From the NCBI GenBank assembly GCA_004296885.1, contig SCVN01000001.1, forward strand, positions 1 to 64,000: 64,000 nt of DNA. The letters are read 5' to 3'. Of this stretch, positions 30,765-46,192 are shown piece after piece. This DNA is from Nitrospirota bacterium (GTDB lineage: Bacteria; Nitrospirota; Nitrospiria; Nitrospirales; Nitrospiraceae). Each line of letters begins with the position of its first letter. The first letter of the stretch is position 1. The position numbers were made by a program, and so were the translations under genes. The notes beneath the pieces were generated by a model that did not search any database, was not told the origin of the DNA, and saw nothing but the letters and a program-made list of their open reading frames with translations.

Positions 30765-30793
30765 TTGCTTTTCCGTCCGAAGCTGGATAGGCT
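30765..30793 (+). promoter_or_regulatory. putative promoter of the FGE-like gene
   Basis: TTGCTT (30765-30770) and TAGGCT (30788-30793), spacer 17 bp; leader of about 40 nt to ATG 30840 with SD GGGAGAGG. Confidence 0.4.
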
Positions 30794-30839
30794 CTCGTCT
30801 CACGCCCTAGCCATGAGACACAACCCCGGGAGAGGTGCG

Positions 30840-31616
30840 ATGCGACCGTTCCTACTGTCGGCCCTGATCTGGTGGTTCGCCGTCGCTTCGACGGCGAACG
30901 CCGAGACGCCGTACCACGTCACCGGCCAGGACGGAGCCCCGATGGTGCTGGTTCCGGCCGGCGAATTCACGATGGGCAGCAACGAAGTCGACGACGAACA
31001 GCCGATTCACCACGTCCATCTGGACGCCTTCTATATGGACCGGTTTGAAGTGACGACATCGCGGTATGCATCGTTCCTCACAGCAACCCAGTTGGCGCCA
31101 CCCCGCCACTGGAACGAAGTGCGTCTTCCCCAGGACGGCGAACGACCGGTCATCGGCGTGACCTGGTTCATGGCCGATGACTATTGCCGTTGGGCCGGCA
31201 AGCGTCTTCCGACCGAAGCCGAATGGGAGAAAGCGGCCAGGGGGACCGACGGACGGGTCTATCCCTGGGGCAACGAGGAGCCGACCGACGACCGCGGTAA
31301 TTTCGGCAAGCCTCGTTGGGCCGGCTATGACACGGTGGCCCCCGTGGGCAATTTCAAGGCCGGCAACAGCCCGTACGGGATTGCGGACATGGCGGGCAAT
31401 GTCTGGGAATGGGTGGCGGATTGGTATGCGGCGGACTACTATCGGACCAGCCCGTCCAAGAATCCGACGGGCCCCCCGCACGGAGAATCCCGCGGGTTTC
31501 GCGGGGGCGGGTGGAACTACGAGGGGTTGCTCGCGCGCGCGGCGGACCGGAACCATGACGACCCGACCGCAGGAATCAGCTCCTACGGATTCCGCTGCGT
31601 CAAGGACGCACCATAG
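30840..31616 (+). CDS. exported formylglycine-generating-enzyme-like (SUMF1) protein
   Basis: A 258-residue protein with a signal peptide (MRPFLLSALIWWFAVASTANA). The SUMF1/FGE-sulfatase fold is clear: MVLVPAGEFTMGSNEVDDEQP, FYMDRFEVTTSRYASFL, PVIGVTWFMADDYCRWAGKRLPTEAEWEKAARG, YPWGNEEPTDDRGNF, SPYGIADMAGNVWEWVADWY and the C-terminal SYGFRCVKD. The two cysteines of true FGE (near the C terminus) are reduced to one, so sulfatase activation is uncertain; many exported members serve as binding modules. Start chosen at 30840 for its SD GGGAGAGG and signal peptide. Confidence 0.85.
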   Translation: MRPFLLSALIWWFAVASTANAETPYHVTGQDGAPMVLVPAGEFTMGSNEVDDEQPIHHVHLDAFYMDRFEVTTSRYASFLTATQLAPPRHWNEVRLPQDGERPVIGVTWFMADDYCRWAGKRLPTEAEWEKAARGTDGRVYPWGNEEPTDDRGNFGKPRWAGYDTVAPVGNFKAGNSPYGIADMAGNVWEWVADWYAADYYRTSPSKNPTGPPHGESRGFRGGGWNYEGLLARAADRNHDDPTAGISSYGFRCVKDAP

Positions 31617-34709: not shown

Positions 34710-35651
34710 CTAAAAGGTCTTGCTCCAGGACAGCGTGAACAGCTCCGTTTGGCTGTTGAAGGGTTGCTCGTGCGGGCCGAAGTAGATGCCGGCCCGCACG
34801 TAGGAGACGGCGATGTCCCAAGGCGTATATTTCAGCGTGATGCCCAGGTGCAGGGACGCATGGCTCAGGGGCTCCCCCCTGGTCTCGACCACTTGCCCGG
34901 TGGTGAGGTTTTCGAGCCGGTGCAGCCGCTCGAACTTGTCGAAGCGGTACATGCCCACCGCAAAGGGGATGAACCGGATCGGCCCCCAGCTCTCCTGCGG
35001 TGCGATGCCGGCCACGAGGCCCGGCGAGAGCAGGGGGAGCGTCTTGTTCTTGGCATAGAACGAGTTGCCCTGAAACTGGAAGGTGCCCTCGGTGGTGGCA
35101 TCGATGGTGCTGAGGCTCAGCCCGAACAACATGGGAATCCGGAGCCCCGGGCCGCTCATCGGGTCGTACACGACTTCCGCCATCGCACTATAGGCCGAGA
35201 TCTGCAACGGCAGGTTCAGGCGGCTGTTCCCCTGCGCGTCAAACCCTTGCGCTCCGAAGCTGATCTGCTGGGCGCTGCCGCCGGCGGTGCGGGCGTAGAC
35301 GCCCTGAAAGCCCACGCCCCAGTGGTCGGAGAGGGCGCGCAGGAACCGGACGGATATGCCGGCGCCTTGCGCGTCAAACTGGGCCAGGGTCTTCCCGTCG
35401 TTGCTGCCCGAATCACGGAAGTAGCCCGGCACCGCCTTCACATACCAATGGCCCTCCTCCATGCCATCCGTGGGGATCGCGTAGGTGGCAAAGCTGCCGA
35501 GGACGCCGGTGCGGACACCGGCTCCGGCGTTGACCCACTGGCCGTTGACCTGGATGCTGGCAGCCTCCGCCTGGACAGACGGTACCTCCCCCAAGATTCC
35601 CCAGCAGGCCATGATAACGATCGAGACCCATGACCGGCTGCGGCGAGTCAT
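34710..35651 (-). CDS. outer-membrane beta-barrel protein
   Basis: A 313-residue exported protein with signal peptide ending EVPSVQA. The body has alternating amphipathic strands with loops: ATYAIPTDGMEEGHWYVKAVPGYFR, GISVRFLRALSDHWGVGFQGVYA, LGITLKYTPWDIAVSYVRAGIYFG and a C-terminal FTLSWSKTF, an aromatic end typical of BAM substrates. Family and function are not recognised; an asymmetric MipA- or phenol-transport-type barrel is possible. It closes the minus-strand envelope gene cluster and lies 36 bp after a lipoprotein gene. Confidence 0.75.
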   Translation of the reverse strand: MTRRSRSWVSIVIMACWGILGEVPSVQAEAASIQVNGQWVNAGAGVRTGVLGSFATYAIPTDGMEEGHWYVKAVPGYFRDSGSNDGKTLAQFDAQGAGISVRFLRALSDHWGVGFQGVYARTAGGSAQQISFGAQGFDAQGNSRLNLPLQISAYSAMAEVVYDPMSGPGLRIPMLFGLSLSTIDATTEGTFQFQGNSFYAKNKTLPLLSPGLVAGIAPQESWGPIRFIPFAVGMYRFDKFERLHRLENLTTGQVVETRGEPLSHASLHLGITLKYTPWDIAVSYVRAGIYFGPHEQPFNSQTELFTLSWSKTF

Positions 35652-35687
35652 GCGAGCATGGGGGACGGGCGGCGCCCCCCTCAGGGG

Positions 35688-36167
35688 CTACCTTCCCCCT
35701 GTCATGCCTCTGATCGGACCGAGCACCTGCTTGCGGTATGCCTCCGACGTGCGCACGCTTTCCTCGCGCTTGGCATGATTCGCGTCGATGATCTGGTCGA
35801 ACCGCTGGGCGCAGCCCTTCACATCGGTGGGGTCCAGACGGCAGGCCACGCAGGCGGCATAGCTCAAGGCGTAGATCCGGTTCACGTCGTGCGTGGCAGG
35901 GTAGTACTTCTCCAAGGCGCCCTGAATCTCGCCGGAGGCGCTGGCCCCGGCCACCGACGTGATGATGCCGCTGACATCCCCGCTGAACTTTTTCATCGTG
36001 TTCCGGTCCTCGTCGGCGACGCTCGACGGGAGCGGGCAGAATTCCCCCTTGATCTGGACTTCGTTGACGCCGCCGCAACCCTGCGTCAGCATCAGCAGAC
36101 CGACCAGGGTGAGCAGAGTGGCCGAGGTGTTCCGTTGAACGCCGTGCAAAAACGTGTGGGTCGTCAT
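35688..36167 (-). CDS. lipoprotein of unknown function
   Basis: A 159-residue lipoprotein. Lipobox LMLTQGC with Cys31; SD GGAGG four to six bases before ATG 36167. The mature part is mostly helical (DRNTMKKFSGDVSGIITSVAG, ASASGEIQGALEKYYPATHDVNRIYALSYAACVACRLD) with four cysteines beyond the lipid cysteine (FCPL, AACVAC and KGCAQRFDQ); two of them form a CVAC pair. Such a CxxC-like motif could bind metal or form disulfides. I do not recognise the family. It lies between two barrel-protein genes and has a covarying-stem repeat just before it. Confidence 0.7.
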   Translation of the reverse strand: MTTHTFLHGVQRNTSATLLTLVGLLMLTQGCGGVNEVQIKGEFCPLPSSVADEDRNTMKKFSGDVSGIITSVAGASASGEIQGALEKYYPATHDVNRIYALSYAACVACRLDPTDVKGCAQRFDQIIDANHAKREESVRTSEAYRKQVLGPIRGMTGGR

Positions 36168-36182
36168 GGGGTCCTCCATACC

Positions 36183-36243
36183 AAACTTCGTTTGAACCGT
36201 TCGCCTTGCAATAGTTCTTGGCGAACAGATAGACACCTCCAGG
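36183..36243 (+). repeat. covarying-stem repeat, copy R8
   Basis: Flank AAACTTCGTTTGAACC, perfect 7-bp stem GTTCGCC (36199-36205) with GGCGAAC (36220-36226), tail AGATAGACACCTCCAGGG. Same orientation as all other copies, although the genes here run on the minus strand; it sits between two envelope genes and not after a tRNA. Confidence 0.7.
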
Positions 36244-36278
36244 GATTCCCAATGCTGGCGGACTTTTGCAGCATTCTA

Positions 36279-36950
36279 TTAGAAATGATAGTTGAGCCCA
36301 AGGTTCAGCGTGTTCGACGTGTACGTGGATTCAAAGCCACGGCCCGGCCCCAGCATGTTGTCGAAGCGAAGGTTCGCATAGTGGTACCGATATTCCAGAG
36401 ACATGGACACGTGCTCGATCAGCAGGATGTTGAGCCCCGCAAAGCCGTTGGCGCCGGGGCTCCAGTTCGACGACGAGGCGCCGTCGGCATTGGCGAAGAA
36501 GACGCCGAGCCCGCCGCCGACATAGGGGCGAAACCGTTCGCCTGGATAGCGGGCCACCAGATTCGTGGTCCAGACGGTCATGCGCATATTCTGTCCGTTG
36601 TTCGCGCCCAACCCGGTGCCTCCGGTCACCGACGCCTGCTTGGAATTAATGTTCGGCGTCGAATTGGACACGTCCATGTCGAGTCCCAGCCACTTGTGAC
36701 TCTCGAAGAAATAGCCCACCTTGCCCCCGTAGGAAAGCGTCGTTTGCTGGGTAAAAGTGTTCAACGTGCCGCCTTGCTGTCCCGTGCCGCTGGTGTTGCT
36801 CAGCCCGTTGGGAATCGTCGCACCCACCGTGCCGCCGACGTACCACTCGGCCGAAGCCGGAAGACTCCAGAGGCCGAGAAGCCCAAAGCACAAGAGGACA
36901 CCGACACGGCGGAAACCGTTGGCGAGGCTGTTCTGCTCGATGACCTGCAT
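36279..36950 (-). CDS. OmpA-like / opacity-type outer-membrane barrel protein
   Basis: A 223-residue exported protein of the eight-stranded porin-like family (OMP_b-brl). Signal peptide ends in LWSLPASA. Strands include EWYVGGTVGATIPNGL, YGGKVGYFFESHKWLGLDMDVSNS, RFRPYVGGGLGVFFANADG, NGFAGLNILLIEHVSMSLEYRYHYAN and the C-terminal NLGLNYHF with terminal Phe. No ligand-binding motif is known. A 110-bp gap separates its start from the end of the CEMIP-like gene upstream, so it may share that transcript. Confidence 0.8.
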   Translation of the reverse strand: MQVIEQNSLANGFRRVGVLLCFGLLGLWSLPASAEWYVGGTVGATIPNGLSNTSGTGQQGGTLNTFTQQTTLSYGGKVGYFFESHKWLGLDMDVSNSTPNINSKQASVTGGTGLGANNGQNMRMTVWTTNLVARYPGERFRPYVGGGLGVFFANADGASSSNWSPGANGFAGLNILLIEHVSMSLEYRYHYANLRFDNMLGPGRGFESTYTSNTLNLGLNYHF

Positions 36951-37061
36951 AAATCCTCCTACTCCCGCTTATACACAAGAGACTGTCTTGCGACCGACAA
37001 CCTTGTTCTCACACCCGTTAGTCCAGTGGGGGAACCCGATGGCGACTCCCCAGACCTCCGC

Positions 37062-40000
37062 TCACTGGGAAGGAGGAGAAAACGTAACTTGCGGTCCGAA
37101 GTTATAGCCGCTGCCTTGATTCGTCATAGTCACCCCGGTCACCGATCCATTGGCGATGGTGGCGACTCCCTGAGCCTGCATTCCGCTGGCAGGGGGGGTA
37201 ATCGTGACCGTCGGCGGCGAGGTATAACCGCTACCGGGATTGGTGACGACCACCTGCAACACGACTCCCGCTTCCATGACGGCGGTTCCCTGGGCAGGCG
37301 CCATACACACAGAAGGGCTCAGAGGATAGGTAAAGCCGCCCGCGGGCGGATAGGCGCCCCTGGAGTTTACCGCCGACCAGGGCGGGTTCGTGACGCAATG
37401 GTAGCGGAAATTTTCCGTCACGGGAACTCTTGGGCCGGGTATCGTCAAGAAGGAATAGGTGACTTGATCACCGGCCGGGGGTGGCGTTCCATCAACAGGC
37501 GCCAGGAAGGCGGGCAATGCCGTGCCGTCTTGAGGTGCGGTGGTCGGCACCGGCAGGCCATTGGGCTGCTGCGGCGGTGTGGCATAGACGAAGTGGTACT
37601 GGTTCCAGGCGCTGTAATCGGTGCGGGCAATGGGGTGCGGCGGAACGCAGGGCGAGCAGGAAGGGGGCGTCCCTACCGTGGCATTGGTGAAGTTCACCAG
37701 ATAGGCCGCGCAACCGGTTTCGTGGCAGGCAAAGAGGTCGGTCGGTTGCGGGGTTTTTTGAGCAACCAGGCAGGACGCATCCAGGGCGGCTTGCACGCCG
37801 CTGGGATCGCTGAAACTCTTGATCTGCTGAATTTGCGCGAGATAGTTCACGCCGGTATTGTAATTGGCTGCATCGCAGGTTCCGAAGGGGGAATACTGGC
37901 GCTGCACCGGCTTTTCTTCGATCATGTAGAAGTACAGCATGTTGTTCGCGGCGTCATAGTAATAGGTCTGAGCGGCAATGAAGGTCGCGATGTCGGCTGC
38001 GGTTGGTTTGGCTATGCCCATCAGGGTCTTGTAGGGCTGTTCGAACTGCTGCCAGCTCGTCGCTTGCGGTAACGTCATCCCGCCGGAATATTGGGTCGGT
38101 CCCCCCGGCCACGGAGCCGGAGGCGCTTGGTTATTCGCGCGGGCCAGGCAATCTTGCCAACGGGGCTCCGCATAGGCCTGCCAGGCAAAGAACGCGCTAT
38201 CGCAGGAAGTGGAAGTGCCGCCTGGCGGGATATAGCCTGGCGGCCACACGAGAGGATTGTCATAGGGCTCCCCCCACTGGCGACGAATCCGGGAGACGTT
38301 GATTTTCGTCGGGTCTGTGACCTGCTGATAGACCGCGATGCGGTTGACAAAAAAGTCTCCGGCTTTTTTCACGGCCGGATCCGTATAACTGAACAGCAGC
38401 CGATTCTGGAAGGCGGCCGGTGTCGTCGTTTGGTGTTCGGTGCCGGTTTTCCCATAGACCGTGTAGCCCATCCGGTCCATGACAAAGGGTTCGTAAATCG
38501 GATTCTGTCCGCGACCGTTGAGAAACAGATAGGGATACACCGTATCGCCGTAGGCCGGCATGTCCCGCTTGATTTCCACGCGGAACGTCGCCGGGATGCC
38601 GCCCGGGGGGTTGTCAACCGACTCGATGTTCAAGGTGGCGTATTTGTGCGGGCTCATCAACGAAGTCGAGCGAAAATCGTTGGGCCCGCGCGAATGGGGC
38701 TCGTCCACGGTGTACTCCGTGGCGTAGTAGTCCACGCTGTTGAGCGAGACGGGGACCAGATCGTGATGGGAGGTCCCGCTCCCGTCCACGACCCTCAAGC
38801 CTGACAACTGGCCGTCCTTGTCGAGGATGACGGTCGTCTTATCCCCGTCGTTAAAGGGTCCCAGATTGACCGCCTCCGTATAGACTTGATGCTTGAAATC
38901 CACATTGTCCCAAATGCTGTTCTGGATGTACTGCGTGGGGGGGACGGTTTGTTGGTTCGATTGAATCCAGCCCGTGGCCGCATCTCCGACATAGCCGTTG
39001 AAAAGGGCCGTGACGGTTCCGTTCAACTGAGGAGCGCCCTGGAGTTGTCCCAGCGTGCCGAGCGGCGGATTCGCATTCTGGACCGTGTCAAACGCCGCGA
39101 TGGTCTGAATATCGGTCTTGGTCAGTAACCGGGCTGCCGGGTTGTTCGGATGGATGCCGGTCGGATCGAAGCGGAAATTGACGAAACGGTTGTGCTCGAT
39201 GCGGGCCGGGCCGTCGTAGTAGCTGTAGCCTTGGATGTTCATCGCGGCCTGGAAATTGGGAGTGGGAAAGTTTCCCCAGCCGCTTAGCCCCGAACTCAAC
39301 TGCACATCGGTGCATTCCGTTGGCCAGGAGGGCGCATTGCTGCCGGCATATTGCCACATGCCGCTCCCCGAAGAAGATCCGGCATTGACGGAGCCGGTGG
39401 TCTGGAAGGTGGTGCCCGTCGTGGTCCCGACGGTCCAGCCGCCATTGGCCGACGTGTAGCCCTGCACCCCGGAGATTTGGACCTGGGCATTTTGCGGGGG
39501 GATGACCGGACTGGTGATGACGAGGTAGTTCGGCGCCGGTCCGGCAGTGCTCGCAGCACTCGTGATGGGAAAGGCACAGCCTGCCGGATACCGCTCCACA
39601 TTGTTTCGCGTCATGCCGGCAATCACGTTTTCATGGGCCAGGCCCCAATAACCCGGCGGATTGCCCTCGGGGCCGCCGCCGCCGAGCAAGGAGAAGCCAT
39701 AGGGATTCGTGGCCAACCGGTTGTTGTGCAGGGCCGTGTAGATGGTCCTGATCCACACACCGCGAAAACGCGAGCGGGTGACGGTGTTGTCATTGAGCAG
39801 CAGTACCGGAGCCTGACGGGCGACGTGCCACGTGCCGCCGCTGCCTCCATAGGTTCCGGTGCCGGTCGAGCCATTGAGCGAGAAGGTGCCGGAGCCGTAA
39901 CCCACGGCGGGCGTGGTGACGAACCAGGTGTTGTCGGCCGAGGTGCCCGTTCCCGAGATCGTCACCTGGGTTCCGGTGGACGGGGGAGTCGAAGTGGTCG

Positions 40001-42581
40001 TCACGACGATGGGCGGAAGCGCGACCCCTGTGATGCTCTGAGCCTGCAGCTGCCAGTTGCCCGTATTAGTCACAGGAAAGCCCGCGTTGCTGCTGCTGGT
40101 CGAGTTATTGAGCGAGAAAGTGCTGGTGCCGGTGTTCGTGACGGTCCAGGTGTTGTCGGCGGCAGTTCCGGTCCCGGTGATCGTCACCTGCGTATTCGTC
40201 GGGGGGGCAGGAATGCCGCCCGGAACGGTAATGACGATGGGCTGGTTCGTGACCTTCGTGGCCGTAAAAACGGGATAGGCCGGCAGTTGCCAAGTCCCGC
40301 CGCTGCCCGAATAGGTCCCGGTGACGATCGCGTTCTTGATCCCGAACGTATACGGTTGCCGGCTATTGTTGATGTTCGTGACGGGCCATGTGCCGGCTTG
40401 GATGTTGGTTCCGGCGATGGTCACCGTTTGCGTGCCGCTGGGCAGGGGCGTCGGACTGGTGATGGTGATGGGTGGAATCGTCACGCCCGTGACGGGATAG
40501 GACGACGATGGCAGGAAGGGTTGGGGATTCAGCGCCATGACGGTATCCGCATTGGTATCGATGCCGTTGTAACACCCATGCGAGCGGTTGCCGGTAAACT
40601 CCGGATAGGCAAAGCGCTGGTTGTTCTGAGTCAAGAGCCAATAGGCTCGTCCCTGGGCCTGGCATCCGGCCACCGAATTGTTGACGAAGGTATTGCCGAG
40701 GTTGGTAATCCAGAATCCACCGGGATGGAAAAGATCAGGTCCGGGCATGCAGGACCCACCGGGGCAGACGGCATTGGCGCCCGAAAATGAGGTGTCCGGG
40801 ATGCCGCTGGTGGCATACCAGGTGGCGGACGAATAGGAGCGTTGCAAGTTGTCGCCGTCCCAATAAGTGCTGCCATTTTGTCGCGGGTAGGAATAGGTGC
40901 TGTTGGCCGCCATGGTGCCGGCGATGAGGTTCCGCATGAACTGGTTGCCGGTGATGCCGGTCCCGTCCTCCAGGTAGACCCCCTGGCCGACGGTGCGGAC
41001 GCAGACGTTGTTGTAGAAGTTGGCATTCCCCGTGGCGTGAACCACATAGCACTTGTTGTAACTGTGGTGCACGCTGACGTCCTGAATCAGGACGTTGGTC
41101 CCACTGGGCAGTTTGTGCAAGTGGACGGGGTAGCGTCCCACCAGGGCCTGGCCGAACTTTTCAATCTCCACGCCCACCAACGTCAGGGTGGGGCTGGTCG
41201 TGCCGCTGACCATTGTGACCACGTGGCCGCCGATGAAATTGTTGGCGTCGGTGGTTTGGCCGGCCGCCGAAGTGAGTTTGATGTTCCGGGACAGCAGGGC
41301 CACCTCCGCCCTTTCGTCGATCCCATAATTGCGATGATGGTCGTCATAGAAGCTTTTGGCTTGGCGGCTGACGTCGATCGCGTTGCCGCCTGGCACGACG
41401 ACCTGTTTCGTCTTGGCCGGAAAGAGCCCCGGCGTCGGCGCGAGCCCGCCATAGTGGTAGTGCTTGAGCTTCGTGCCCGAGCAGAGGGTGAGCTGGCTCA
41501 CCTGGGCCGGCGTGCCTGGGATGGGGGTCTTGGCGGAGGCTTCCGGGTTGGCCACGGCGGCGATGCTGCAGATCTGCACGATCTCCGTCTGATGCGAAGT
41601 AAAGCTGGTCGTAGCGACGGCCACCCAGTCGTTGACCTGCCAGTCCACCTGCATTGCCAACGTCAACGTCGTGTCCGGATTCGTCGCCGGCACGGGCGCG
41701 CTGACGTTTTCCGCGTCGTTATACTTGGCCGGCCCGGCGGGCACCGAAAGATAGGTCCAGCTCTTCGTGCCGAAAACCGTGTTGATGAATATCGGATTCC
41801 GGAGGGGATTGTTTTGCGTGCCGTCCGGCCTCGCCGAGAGGCCTTTGCCGCCATAGAGCGCCAGGGTTCCCCCGTCCATGACGGTGAGGTCGCGGGCATT
41901 GGGGTTCTGGTCGCCCGCCGTGGGCGGGAGCGCCGCCGAGGCGTTGCCGGCCATGACGATCGTGATCTGGCTTTGAATGGGCGCCGTCACCGAGCCCGCC
42001 TGCATCGCGCCGCCGTTCCGGATCAGGAAAGAGCTGGCATAGAGCGTCATGGCCTGGTCCTGCAGGGTCAGGGTGCCGCCCGAGCCGACGATGACAGGCA
42101 TCAGAGGCGCTTGCGCAGTGAACGTTGCATCCGACGTGCCCACGGTCACGTTTTGACAAGGGGTACCGCTGGCAATATGCAAAGCCGTGACGGCTTGCGG
42201 CACGACGGGCGGGTTTGCCGGTATGGTCAGCTGGCACTGACCATTGTTGTAGTTAGTCACGGCCTGGCTCAGGGTGATGCTTGACGCTGTGCCTCGGAGC
42301 GGAGCCCCCAACGGGGCTTGAGATTTTCCCCCCAAGGCCTTGGCCAGCTTGTCGGCCTCGGCCTTTCGCACCTCGCTCTCCTGTTCCATAGACTGGGCAA
42401 GCTTGCGCTCCTGCTGCAGTTCGGCGCTCATCTTGGCCTTGGCCCGCTCCCGCTCCTGCCGGACTTGCTCCACGTCGCCGGAGGAGGCGCAGCCGGTCAA
42501 GAGGCCCACACACATGAGCAGGGCCACGGTCCCGGTCTGCGCGCGACGTTGGATGATCGTGGCCGTATCGTCTGTCGTCAT
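37062..42581 (-). CDS. giant lipoprotein with CEMIP-like G8/right-handed beta-helix region
   Basis: A 1839-residue surface lipoprotein. Lipobox LLTGC (Cys31) is followed by ASSGDVEQ and a coiled coil (residues 33-85) shared with the next two lipoproteins. Residues about 115-350 look like a G8 domain (VIVGSGGTLTLQDQAMTLYASSF), and 440-570 contain right-handed beta-helix turns with GRYPVHLHKL and VHHSYNKCYVVHATGNANFY, strikingly like CEMIP/TMEM2 hyaluronan-degrading proteins (RYPIHFH motif). About residues 700-920 and 1015-1080 carry inserted Thr/Gly-rich repeats (TVTITGTGTAADNTWTVTN; FSLNGSTGTGTYGGSGGTW). The C terminus has GSGYTSPPTVTI repeats. Substrate is unproven; surface polysaccharide binding or cleavage is likely. 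SD AGGAGG precedes ATG 42581. Confidence 0.85.
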   Translation of the reverse strand: MTTDDTATIIQRRAQTGTVALLMCVGLLTGCASSGDVEQVRQERERAKAKMSAELQQERKLAQSMEQESEVRKAEADKLAKALGGKSQAPLGAPLRGTASSITLSQAVTNYNNGQCQLTIPANPPVVPQAVTALHIASGTPCQNVTVGTSDATFTAQAPLMPVIVGSGGTLTLQDQAMTLYASSFLIRNGGAMQAGSVTAPIQSQITIVMAGNASAALPPTAGDQNPNARDLTVMDGGTLALYGGKGLSARPDGTQNNPLRNPIFINTVFGTKSWTYLSVPAGPAKYNDAENVSAPVPATNPDTTLTLAMQVDWQVNDWVAVATTSFTSHQTEIVQICSIAAVANPEASAKTPIPGTPAQVSQLTLCSGTKLKHYHYGGLAPTPGLFPAKTKQVVVPGGNAIDVSRQAKSFYDDHHRNYGIDERAEVALLSRNIKLTSAAGQTTDANNFIGGHVVTMVSGTTSPTLTLVGVEIEKFGQALVGRYPVHLHKLPSGTNVLIQDVSVHHSYNKCYVVHATGNANFYNNVCVRTVGQGVYLEDGTGITGNQFMRNLIAGTMAANSTYSYPRQNGSTYWDGDNLQRSYSSATWYATSGIPDTSFSGANAVCPGGSCMPGPDLFHPGGFWITNLGNTFVNNSVAGCQAQGRAYWLLTQNNQRFAYPEFTGNRSHGCYNGIDTNADTVMALNPQPFLPSSSYPVTGVTIPPITITSPTPLPSGTQTVTIAGTNIQAGTWPVTNINNSRQPYTFGIKNAIVTGTYSGSGGTWQLPAYPVFTATKVTNQPIVITVPGGIPAPPTNTQVTITGTGTAADNTWTVTNTGTSTFSLNNSTSSSNAGFPVTNTGNWQLQAQSITGVALPPIVVTTTSTPPSTGTQVTISGTGTSADNTWFVTTPAVGYGSGTFSLNGSTGTGTYGGSGGTWHVARQAPVLLLNDNTVTRSRFRGVWIRTIYTALHNNRLATNPYGFSLLGGGGPEGNPPGYWGLAHENVIAGMTRNNVERYPAGCAFPITSAASTAGPAPNYLVITSPVIPPQNAQVQISGVQGYTSANGGWTVGTTTGTTFQTTGSVNAGSSSGSGMWQYAGSNAPSWPTECTDVQLSSGLSGWGNFPTPNFQAAMNIQGYSYYDGPARIEHNRFVNFRFDPTGIHPNNPAARLLTKTDIQTIAAFDTVQNANPPLGTLGQLQGAPQLNGTVTALFNGYVGDAATGWIQSNQQTVPPTQYIQNSIWDNVDFKHQVYTEAVNLGPFNDGDKTTVILDKDGQLSGLRVVDGSGTSHHDLVPVSLNSVDYYATEYTVDEPHSRGPNDFRSTSLMSPHKYATLNIESVDNPPGGIPATFRVEIKRDMPAYGDTVYPYLFLNGRGQNPIYEPFVMDRMGYTVYGKTGTEHQTTTPAAFQNRLLFSYTDPAVKKAGDFFVNRIAVYQQVTDPTKINVSRIRRQWGEPYDNPLVWPPGYIPPGGTSTSCDSAFFAWQAYAEPRWQDCLARANNQAPPAPWPGGPTQYSGGMTLPQATSWQQFEQPYKTLMGIAKPTAADIATFIAAQTYYYDAANNMLYFYMIEEKPVQRQYSPFGTCDAANYNTGVNYLAQIQQIKSFSDPSGVQAALDASCLVAQKTPQPTDLFACHETGCAAYLVNFTNATVGTPPSCSPCVPPHPIARTDYSAWNQYHFVYATPPQQPNGLPVPTTAPQDGTALPAFLAPVDGTPPPAGDQVTYSFLTIPGPRVPVTENFRYHCVTNPPWSAVNSRGAYPPAGGFTYPLSPSVCMAPAQGTAVMEAGVVLQVVVTNPGSGYTSPPTVTITPPASGMQAQGVATIANGSVTGVTMTNQGSGYNFGPQVTFSPPSQ

Positions 42582-42675
42582 ACCGATCCTCCTTCTCCTA
42601 ACTCGCATCTCTGCGCAGCGATCTTGCGATGGCCCGGCCCGCCCTGGCTCAACCGGGAGGACGAGATCAACGCTG

Positions 42676-45477
42676 CTAGCAATGACCCGGAAAACAGACG
42701 GTTGAGGCCTGCTTGCCAGGCACCGGCGCAAAGGGTGTGCCAATCCCGAGGGTATTGTTATTCAAAATGGACACGGTCGGGAAACTGTTCGCACTCCCCC
42801 CATTCCACCCCGGAGTCAACAGATTGGAGATGGGAGGGGTGAGGAAGGCATTGTTGATATTAAACATGGTATAGCTGCCGCCGTTGGTGACGGTCACCGA
42901 GGACACCGACTCACCAGAGAGGGCGGCGGTGCCCTGGGCCGCCGTGCCGCCCGGCGACGGGTCAAACCCGACGCCCGGCACCGAGGTATAGCCGTTGCCG
43001 CCGTTGGTGACGGTCACCCCATTCACCGCGCCGCCGGAAACGGTGGTGGTTCCCCTGGCAAAAGACGATCCCACATTCGGCGCGCCAAAGGTGACGCCAG
43101 GGGGGATCGACGAGGGAGTCAGGGAAGAGAGGTTGACAACATAATTCCCCTGGTAAACGGTGCTGCTGCTCCCATCGGTGATGGTGAGTCCATACACGTT
43201 GAGCCCTGGGGCGCCCTGGATGGGAGCGCTGGCGCCGAGCGTATAGGGCGCGTTATTGATGGAAACCTGATAGCCTGCGGGGATTTTCCCCGAAGTATTC
43301 GCCGACCAGCTGAGACTGGTGCCGAATGGTATGGACCCGCTTGGAGGCGTGATCCGCCCGGTGGTCGTGCCATAGACGGGAACGGTATAGGATTGAATCG
43401 AATTGGGGCCTGTGGCCGTGACACTGATTTGGTAGGTGGTGCCGGGGCTCAGTCCCGAGATGGTCGTGCCGGACGGGCTGGGCGTGGCGGGCGTCAGGGT
43501 GACCCCGGGAACCGGAATGCCCCCGCCGTAGGTCACATTGACCGTATAGGCCGTCGCGCCGCTGCTGGCCGGCCACGCAATCGTCAGCGAGGTGTTCGTC
43601 GGATTCGAGACGGTCACGATCGGAGCGTCGAGACGAGTGTCATTCAGGATGGTGACGCGCAGCGTGGTTGCGTTGCTCGGCACCGGCACGAAGGGACTGG
43701 GCCGTCCACCGCGGTCGCTGTAGGCAAAGCCATAGGCATCGGACAGGTTGTAAAAGACCGCGGCATAGGGATTGTAGTAGCCATCGTTCGTCTTACGGGC
43801 GCCGCCGAAGGGGTAGAGGGTCGGCGGATTGCTGTACCAATTCGCAGTATTCTGCGGGACGTTGCTCCCCTTGCCCGCATATCCGAAGTTCATGCCCGCC
43901 ATGAAATCCCCCGCAATCACCGCATAGAGGCTGTTGGGGACGGAGGCGATTTGTTGCGGGGTCATTCCCGTCGTCGGCACCGTGAAGGCCGTGGCAGGCG
44001 CACCATAGAGGTTCACGTCGTATCCAGCCTTGGAGGAAGGAGCCGGCAGGTTCACGGTCACGGTGAGATTCGCCGGGAGCACCACGTTGGCCGGCGGAGT
44101 TGGCGGAGCGGCGATCGTGACGGTCGGCGCCGAGGTATAGCCGGTGCCGCCGTGGGAGATCGTCACTCCCGACACCATCCCGCTCGGCGAGAGGGTGGCG
44201 GTTCCCTGGGCGCCGGACCCTCCGCCACCGGTGAAGGTGACCGCCGGCGCACCGCTAAAATAGTCGCTGCCGGGGTTGGTGATGGTCACCGCCGTCACCG
44301 CTTGGCTAGCGATGGTCGCCGTACCTTGGGCCGTCGTTGCGCCAGGGGGGATTCCACATGGCGCTCCGGTCGTGGTGCCCGTTAACGTCACGGTATATCC
44401 GCCCTTCCCGTTGGAAGCGAACTTTCCATTGTAGGAGTAAGGGATGGCCGGGCAACCGGCATTCGAGAACCCGTTGTCGGCGAATGACTGTCCGACCAGG
44501 GAGGCCAGATACGACCCGTAACTTGGATAGGGCGCCGGAGAGCCGGTCGTCGAATTGGACGCCAGGAGCGAAGGGCCCATGACGCGGATGAACGGCGATA
44601 CGCCCTGACTCGGAGTCCACCCTGACGGCCGAAACGCGCCTCCCATCTGTGGGCTGAGCCCATAGAGTTGGTTCAGAATCGTGCTCGTCGACGTGTAATA
44701 GGTCATGGTGGCGATGACGTTGTTGCCGGCATCGAGATAGTCGTATTGCATCGGAATGCCGAAGAAGTCCATGGACGTCAGGTCCGCGCCGCCCGGAGCC
44801 GGATAGGCAAGCTCCATCTTGTCCCAGCGGAACGACTCGGTGCCGGTCGGAAACGCGCCGTTTGTGACGGCGACCGGCGCGGTATAGGAGACCATGAGGC
44901 GCCCGCTGCTGATCGCGGCGACCGAGAATTGATACACATTCTGAGTGGCGCCGGTGTAGGGGGATATGGTCGTGCCGCATGGCGTGAGACTGCTCAATGG
45001 GCCGGCCGTCTGCGTTCCGCTTGGGTTCACGCCGATATCAAGATACGCAAGACCGCTAGGCACGCCGCTGGAGGTCCATCCGATGCCTTTCCCGGTCAGG
45101 AGCACATAGACCTGGCTGTCGTGCAGGTTGCTGTCATTGACCAATTGGACCGCTAGCTGATTGGTATTGGTATTTGCCGGGCAAGAGCCCGAAGCGCCGA
45201 GAGATGAGGGCTTGCCGTTCCCCTTCCCCCTCAAAGCCTGGGCCAGCTTCTCGGCGGAGGCCTTCTTGGCCTCGCTTTCTCTTTCCATCGAGGCAGCCAG
45301 CGCCTGCTCCTGCTGAAGTTCGGCGCGCATCTTGGCCTTGGCCTGCTCGGACTCGTGCCGCGCCTGCTCCACGTCGCCGGAGGAGGCGCAGCCGGCCAAC
45401 AGCAGGGCGGTCGCGAGAAGAATACCGGAGCCGGAGCGGCGGCTGGCGTTCGATTCGTGCGAGTGTACGCGCGCCAT
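42676..45477 (-). CDS. GH64-like (beta-1,3-glucanase/thaumatin-like) lipoprotein
   Basis: A 933-residue lipoprotein. Lipobox LLLAGC (Cys30) and coiled coil like the CEMIP-like protein (ASSGDVEQARHESEQAKAKM). Residues about 105-270 resemble the GH64 thaumatin-like beta-1,3-glucanase fold: LAVQLVNDSNLHDSQVYVLL, SSGRLMVSYTAP, WDKMELAY and SMDFFGIPMQYDYL. GSGY-type repeats follow (VTITNPGSDYFSGAPAVTF, ISHGGTGYTSAPTVTI), a second half of the glucanase region, and a fibronectin type III domain (APIVTVSNPTNTSLTIAW, SGLSPGTTYQISVTATG). The catalytic acids cannot be fixed by eye. It lies 95 bp before the CEMIP-like gene and starts with SD GGGAGAGG at ATG 45477. Confidence 0.85.
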   Translation of the reverse strand: MARVHSHESNASRRSGSGILLATALLLAGCASSGDVEQARHESEQAKAKMRAELQQEQALAASMERESEAKKASAEKLAQALRGKGNGKPSSLGASGSCPANTNTNQLAVQLVNDSNLHDSQVYVLLTGKGIGWTSSGVPSGLAYLDIGVNPSGTQTAGPLSSLTPCGTTISPYTGATQNVYQFSVAAISSGRLMVSYTAPVAVTNGAFPTGTESFRWDKMELAYPAPGGADLTSMDFFGIPMQYDYLDAGNNVIATMTYYTSTSTILNQLYGLSPQMGGAFRPSGWTPSQGVSPFIRVMGPSLLASNSTTGSPAPYPSYGSYLASLVGQSFADNGFSNAGCPAIPYSYNGKFASNGKGGYTVTLTGTTTGAPCGIPPGATTAQGTATIASQAVTAVTITNPGSDYFSGAPAVTFTGGGGSGAQGTATLSPSGMVSGVTISHGGTGYTSAPTVTIAAPPTPPANVVLPANLTVTVNLPAPSSKAGYDVNLYGAPATAFTVPTTGMTPQQIASVPNSLYAVIAGDFMAGMNFGYAGKGSNVPQNTANWYSNPPTLYPFGGARKTNDGYYNPYAAVFYNLSDAYGFAYSDRGGRPSPFVPVPSNATTLRVTILNDTRLDAPIVTVSNPTNTSLTIAWPASSGATAYTVNVTYGGGIPVPGVTLTPATPSPSGTTISGLSPGTTYQISVTATGPNSIQSYTVPVYGTTTGRITPPSGSIPFGTSLSWSANTSGKIPAGYQVSINNAPYTLGASAPIQGAPGLNVYGLTITDGSSSTVYQGNYVVNLSSLTPSSIPPGVTFGAPNVGSSFARGTTTVSGGAVNGVTVTNGGNGYTSVPGVGFDPSPGGTAAQGTAALSGESVSSVTVTNGGSYTMFNINNAFLTPPISNLLTPGWNGGSANSFPTVSILNNNTLGIGTPFAPVPGKQASTVCFPGHC

Positions 45478-45487
45478 GAGCCTCTCC

Positions 45488-45814
45488 CTATTCAAGGTTT
45501 TTCATCGTGGCCCGGACTTGATTGAGGGCGTCCACATGGCGCGCCTCTTCGGCTTTCAGATATTCTTTGACGGACTGGGATATCTTGGCATGCGCGGCGC
45601 GCAGCGTTTCGTTCTCTTTCGCCAAGGTGGAGAACTGCGTCTGCTCCTTCATCAGGTCCGCCCGCAGCTTGCTCTCCCCCTGTTGCGCCTCCTGCTTGAT
45701 CTGCTCCAGGTCGCCGGAGGTCGCGCAGCCGGCGGCCGCCCAGAGGCCGAGCGCGAGGACGAGGCCGAGCGATTTTCCCGAGCGAATCATTGCATAGTTC
45801 GATGACAGATCCAT
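45488..45814 (-). CDS. small coiled-coil lipoprotein, anchor-module paralogue
   Basis: A 108-residue lipoprotein with lipobox WAAAGC (Cys30) and the motif ATSGDLEQIKQEAQQGESKLRA, then a long helix (ADLMKEQTQFSTLAKENETLRAAHAKISQSVKEYLKAEEARHVDALNQVRATMKNLE). The same Cys-A-S/T-SGD-V/L-EQ start and heptad-like charge pattern occur in the two giant lipoproteins, so this is the anchor module alone, an Lpp-like coiled coil that may trimerise with them. SD GGAGGAGG precedes ATG 45814. It is the first gene of the operon that carries the GH64-like and CEMIP-like proteins. Confidence 0.85.
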   Translation of the reverse strand: MDLSSNYAMIRSGKSLGLVLALGLWAAAGCATSGDLEQIKQEAQQGESKLRADLMKEQTQFSTLAKENETLRAAHAKISQSVKEYLKAEEARHVDALNQVRATMKNLE

Positions 45815-45975: not shown

Positions 45976-46192
45976 AATACCGTGCCCATAGCCTTGCGTC
46001 AGATGCCGATGCCGGATTTTTCGCATCTCCGCATTCCTGCTAGCGTCTCGCTGTGGACGAATTTCTCCAGACCTTTGTCGAGCCTGTGGGGCCGGCGCAA
46101 CAGTGAGTCAAATTCATGACCCGGTCGATAGAGAGAGTCCGGCCTTGTGTCACGTGAACGCCTGTGGCATAAGAGACCGAGGAACCCACAGC

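Follow-up and report, generated by a model that had tools for sequence, protein, structure and literature searches.

Introduction

Among the described systems closest to the locus reported here is the CEMIP/TMEM2 family, named after two human proteins of hyaluronan degradation, whose mechanism is open. The active site of TMEM2 is unassigned, purified sTMEM2 shows no hyaluronidase activity in vitro, and the substitutions R265C, D273N, and D286N, reported to abolish the activity of TMEM2, sit in its lectin-like domain 1 (PMC10206443). Bacterial G8 proteins (those of Croceibacterium and Vitreoscilla, together with orthologues in Thalassospira and the BD1-7 clade) have the same two domains, G8 and beta-helix, as one of the proteins described below; none of them has its stalk, and the plasmid-borne ones are of about 900-1030 aa and 26-30% identical. 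Further points of comparison are the Lpp/OprI alanine-zipper lipoproteins (NF040598), with their short Cys-anchored helical stalk, and the GH64 beta-1,3-glucanases (e.g., PDB 3gd0) with the thaumatin-like proteins. Thaumatin-like relatives can be non-catalytic, and the thaumatin fold often serves for binding only. The invariant Glu and Asp of GH64 are the catalytic pair of LPHase (E154/D170).

The surface and matrix biology of Nitrospirota is little known, and in a literature search (most subscription journals lay outside it) neither this locus nor G8-domain lipoproteins were found as the subject of a paper. We analysed a Nitrospirota window, that is, the whole stretch of 64,000 nucleotides; positions are those of the window unless another record is named.

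Organization of the Locus

Six genes lie on the minus strand in the order F-E-D-C-B-A, running from 45814 down to 34710, with gene starts picked by ribosome-binding site. The open reading frames confirm both the interval and the strand that had been given in the first-pass annotation. F (45488-45814) is a small lipoprotein of 108 aa, formed, according to its ORF and stalk alignment, by a Cys-anchored helical stalk without cargo domain; it gives a weak NCBIfam Ala_zip_lipo match, and its orthologues head the block in G001, G003, and G014. E (42676-45477), a lipoprotein of 933 aa, combines the shared stalk with a GH64-like domain, an fn3 domain, and GSGYTS-type repeats. D (37062-42581) is a giant lipoprotein of 1839 aa with the shared stalk, a G8 domain, and a CEMIP-type beta-helix; small repeats are inserted in it, and its C-terminal region, long and conserved, matches no family. 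C (36279-36950) is an outer-membrane beta-barrel with a clear match to the OMP_b-brl family (Pfam, 3.7e-14) and with orthologues in the block. A (34710-35651) is a probable outer-membrane barrel as judged by its signal peptide, composition, and C-terminal Phe; it has no family match and is present only in genomes having the block. Where two or three barrels had been annotated, C is thus clear and A probable, and a third one was not found. B (35688-36167) is the additional lipoprotein proposed on this strand, recognized by its lipobox LTQGC; its family is unassigned, and a search of Pfam, NCBIfam, and PHROGs gave no match.

Signal peptides and lipobox Cys are present in F, E, D, and B (LTGC, LAGC, AAGC, and TQGC, resp.), the lipoboxes, that of B included, having been judged by eye from the sequence. 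Evidence for an operon comes from the gene spacing, and a promoter scan of the block gave a result no better than shuffles. Near the block, at 30765-31616 on the plus strand, a secreted protein of the FGE-sulfatase (formylglycine-generating-enzyme) type is encoded.

The Block as a Presence/Absence Unit

G000, G001, G003, and G014 have their genes in the order F-(E or another gene)-D-C-B-A and share the flanks, an M24 peptidase on one side and the unnamed gene at 46103 on the other; for G001 and G003 one of these flanks is found on a different contig, and the A-side flank of G001 is past the contig end. Partial blocks, with C-B-A or A adjoining M24, were found at contig ends of G010 and G022. 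The flanks adjoin each other in eight block-less relatives. The gap between them is of 69-108 bp in G004, G005, G008, G009, G012, and G021, and of 1.05 kb, without similarity to the block, in G016. In G002, which belongs to the same genus, the gap measures 192 bp (L128, between 1879 and 2072) and still contains the end of gene A, approximately 46 bp, together with sequence downstream of it (76% identity, 2e-15). Read from its sequence, this remnant is the deletion scar of the whole block; for this genus, if not more widely, the block was probably an ancestral feature that G002 has since lost.

Since the 11-kb block stands between genes that are adjacent in eight relatives, the interval singled out in the first-pass annotation is the block itself. 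The idea that its genes form a joint apparatus gains from this: the whole interval behaves as one presence/absence unit, order and flanks are kept in four Nitrospirota genomes, and dN/dS values of 0.14-0.36 for all block genes tested indicate purifying selection. Because the genes are linked, their co-inheritance was taken as one line of evidence, not six. In base composition the block is unremarkable, and therefore there is no sign of recent foreign origin.

Some variation occurs among the copies. E is absent from the assembled copy of G003, and gene A in G014 is cut to approximately its last 45-56 codons (L048, 13857-13988) with the rest of the block intact. G003 may have a second copy of F at another contig end (L047, 1-1030); with a fragment of B before F (L051, 5259-5444), this suggests a possible tandem second cassette across an unassembled gap.

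The Shared Stalk of F, E, and D

F, E, and D have in common a lipobox and a helical stalk of about 55 residues, which carries the sequence Cys-Ala-Ser/Thr-Ser-Gly-Asp-Val/Leu-Glu-Gln. By stalk comparison and alignment it spans Cys36 to Gly90 of the 939-aa ORF in E (45226-45390, minus strand) and Cys85 to Gly139 of the 1893-aa ORF in D (42327-42491, minus strand). The stalks of D and E are 57% identical (9.1e-22), and that of F is more distant yet significantly similar (1.6e-6, 32% identity), matches that bear out the lipoprotein anchor previously proposed for the three proteins. The coiled-coil character ascribed to this anchor fared less well. In a simple test of heptad periodicity D was marginally significant and the other stalks were not (p 0.05-0.28), and NF040598 matched all three stalks weakly (18-24 bits versus a cut-off of 43). 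The coiled coil is a fair guess, based on family resemblance through a match below the cut-off. The likeness to Lpp/OprI lies in the short Cys-anchored helical stalk; the difference is that the stalks here score below the curated cut-off and that E and D bear large C-terminal domains.

The GH64-Like Lipoprotein E

None of the domain libraries searched put a name to the large domain of E, and Pfam GH64 (PF16483) gave no match to E at E < 1. As sequence and profile searches of the PDB with E returned no GH64 either, a profile-profile test was undertaken, by which the GH64-like region was placed at 43681-45153 (minus strand). The resemblance to the beta-1,3-glucanase/thaumatin fold noted in the first-pass annotation was recovered in this way: in hhalign, E against the GH64 alignment reached a score of 59.3 (probability 94%, E-value 2e-7) over the N-terminal ~140 residues of the domain, while the reversed GH64 profile scored 15.4 and 30 column-shuffled GH64 profiles at most 24.3 (reversed and shuffled profiles together, 12-24). 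With default settings, in which insert columns are counted, the score was 42 and the probability 60%. The E profile was built from two sequences. The GH64 alignment was composed of real sequences from plasmid records, and an approximate GH64 sequence served as probe only. E228 (codon 44812-44814, minus strand) and D243 (codon 44767-44769, minus strand) align with the invariant E123 and D139 of GH64 alignment A5, and both invariant acidic residues are kept in the E proteins of G000 and G014. In the C-terminal half of the region the profile match is weak, and the AlphaFold2 model of E alone (pLDDT 33) was unusable. At the profile level E shows homology to GH64 beyond chance, firm for the N-terminal part and weak for the C-terminal one.

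The fn3 domain of E is located at 43405-43617 on the minus strand (Pfam HMM, 4.6e-7, above cut-off). E shares with GH64 and thaumatin-like proteins the profile homology and both acidic residues, and it differs from them in falling below the Pfam threshold, as a distinct branch that stands on a lipoprotein stalk and has insertions of repeats and fn3. In G001 the slot of E is occupied by a stalked protein of 431 aa with matches to Pfam Thaumatin (0.0049, below cut-off) and TIG (3.6e-11), and the slot seems, from these profiles, to keep one fold group. The thaumatin-like region of this G001 protein had no match in the PDB by phmmer, and no homologue of E was found among the plasmid sequences. A search of 198 Nitrospirota genomes with PF16483 was silent, as were its controls, and it says nothing about absence. 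The A3 matches in other families turned out to be GSGYTS repeats, not GH64.

The CEMIP-Type Lipoprotein D

The G8 domain of D (41847-42116, minus strand) matches PF10162 above the gathering score (5.8e-12). The CEMIP beta-helix domain (40887-41234, minus strand), with the motifs RYPVHLH, VHHSYNKC, and YLEDG, matches PF24606 (CEMIP_beta-hel) at 2.8e-27, with 96 bits versus a cut-off of 27.3. Both domains are also above the Pfam cut-offs in three Nitrospirota orthologues of D. Human CEMIP2 (PDB 8c6i) was matched by D at 6.5e-14 with phmmer and by a six-sequence D profile at 8e-26, and the match is colinear, covering G8, the helix core with the GRYPVHxH and SxHHSxxxC motifs, and one weaker segment. 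The annotated kinship of D with CEMIP/TMEM2 is in agreement with these results, and the membership of D in this fold family is supported at the sequence level.

The suggested link with hyaluronan found no support. Lectin-like domain 1 gave no Pfam match in D, where ~100 profile positions correspond to ~210 in 8c6i, and, as this domain is missing and the activity of TMEM2 itself is disputed (sTMEM2 being inactive in vitro, PMC10206443), hyaluronan is not supported as substrate of D. Apart from this domain, D differs from CEMIP/TMEM2 in its lipoprotein stalk, inserted repeats, and long C-terminal region. The RYP-x-H-x-H and ED motifs are retained in most, not all, of the sequences compared (the window D, BD1-7, Thalassospira, Croceibacterium, Vitreoscilla, two further Nitrospirota proteins, and TMEM2) and are candidate functional residues.

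Three small FCCH-like repeats (residues 745-978; 39810-40511, minus strand) are inserted in the core of D; related repeats match E1_FCCH in orthologues, for example, in the Thalassospira protein. GSGYTS repeats are found at 37074-37304, 42844-43104, and 44104-44415. Both kinds of small repeat are loop insertions in D and E that some orthologues have gained or lost. One kind matches phage structural proteins (PHROGs) and the other E1_FCCH in the Thalassospira protein; a phage origin was rejected, given that the PHROG matches of D and E are limited to the short repeats. The D protein of G003 is 78% identical to that of G014 and 72% to that of G000, most clearly in residues 600-1300, whereas G000 is the nearer one for the M24 gene of the flank and for the stalk and C-terminal stretch of the protein. 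This suggests that the middle part of D was exchanged between lineages, and such a pattern, in the middle and not in the stalk or C-terminus, would be as expected for an exposed domain. The AlphaFold2 model of D, from a six-row alignment, was also unusable (pLDDT 31), so that the fold claims for D and E rest on sequence profiles.

Proposed Function and Alternatives

Domains, stalk homology, the presence/absence unit, purifying selection, and the retained GH64 acidic residues are direct observations; from them we infer the surface side, stalk oligomerization, catalysis, substrate, and the role of A, B, and C. The reading that we favour, to which we give about an even chance, is that of a dispensable cassette, gained and lost, whose stalked envelope lipoproteins, helped by the barrels and B, would bind polysaccharides outside the cell and probably cut them. 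F, E, and D would be exported as lipoproteins, the Cys being followed by Ala-Ser, which is compatible with outer-membrane sorting. By helical stalks of ~55 residues, which may be compared with the alanine zipper of Lpp/OprI, they would be held at the envelope and may be assembled together, F being the cargo-less partner. E would bind, and probably hydrolyse, a beta-1,3-glucan-type polymer through the acid pair E228/D243, and a second polysaccharide outside the cell may be bound, and perhaps also cleaved, by the CEMIP-type beta-helix of D. C, A, and B would assist in the outer membrane. Most likely the cassette would remodel the matrix of the cell itself, or attach the cell to a foreign matrix and loosen it.

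The main rival is that D and E are surface adhesins or matrix-binding proteins, with enzyme-derived folds on stalks that attach cells to cells or particles. This is a real, if clearly less than even, possibility. Adhesins typically have repeats and fn3/TIG domains, the middle region of D is mosaic, and the protein in the G001 slot resembles thaumatin, a fold often used for binding only. The inactivity of sTMEM2, whose active site could not be assigned, points in the same direction (PMC10206443). However, a purely binding role sits poorly with the fact that E has retained the invariant acidic pair of GH64 in G000 as well as in G014, and that the RYP-x-H-x-H and ED motifs are conserved in human TMEM2 and in most bacterial relatives of the set compared.

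The stalk itself, in its resemblance to Lpp/OprI lipoproteins, may be read as tying periplasmic domains to the outer membrane, with the enzymes acting on periplasmic glucans or cell-wall sugars in envelope maintenance, and the surface exposure of D and E is itself a prediction. We regard this as unlikely: the cargo is very large (a core of ~1400 residues), the block is dispensable, and a secreted role is suggested by the Thalassospira homologues, in which a signal peptide is present and a membrane anchor absent. Still less probable is a nutrient-acquisition locus in which glucans would be cut by enzymes at the surface and the products taken up through the barrels. Its gene order does resemble that of surface-enzyme-plus-barrel loci, but C is a small OMP_b-brl barrel and not a TonB or SusC-type importer, and neither a transporter nor a SusD-like protein nor any gene of sugar catabolism is present in the block.

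Distribution of Stalk and Core

Returning to the favoured cassette of stalked polysaccharide-binding lipoproteins, its stalk is also found on other cargo. In G000 it is carried by a GH141-like beta-helix protein (C23; L045, 7382-10165), of which G001 has a stalked copy with an in-frame stop (C64; L050), and in G028 a related stalk is set on a histidine acid phosphatase adjoining an F homologue (L117, 3815-5473). Conversely, D orthologues of Thalassospira and of a BD1-7 clade gammaproteobacterium, with 58% identity over ~1640 residues, have no stalk. The former is a stand-alone protein with a signal peptide and no lipobox; the latter is a lipoprotein encoded beside glycosyltransferase-type genes. 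As the stalk occurs without the D core and the core without the stalk, they are separable modules, and among the sequences compared they occur together only in Nitrospirota.

A tentative extension, which we hold to be less likely than not, is a modular surface display in which one Nitrospirota stalk family, together with the cargo-less F, would build oligomers of mixed composition that bear enzymes at the cell surface, with CEMIP-, GH64-, thaumatin-, and GH141-like as well as histidine phosphatase domains plugged in. A stalk with interchangeable cargo, if true, would be a natural scaffold for enzyme display. Whether the beta-helix acts as an enzyme could be tested more simply on the bacterial relatives that have no lectin-like domain and share motifs with the human protein (RYP-x-H-x-H, YLEDG). 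The CEMIP helix was present in 6 of the 296 Nitrospirota genomes sampled. One Nitrospirota CEMIP/G8 protein (G060; L121, 4956-8105) has PKD and cadherin-like domains and not the stalk.
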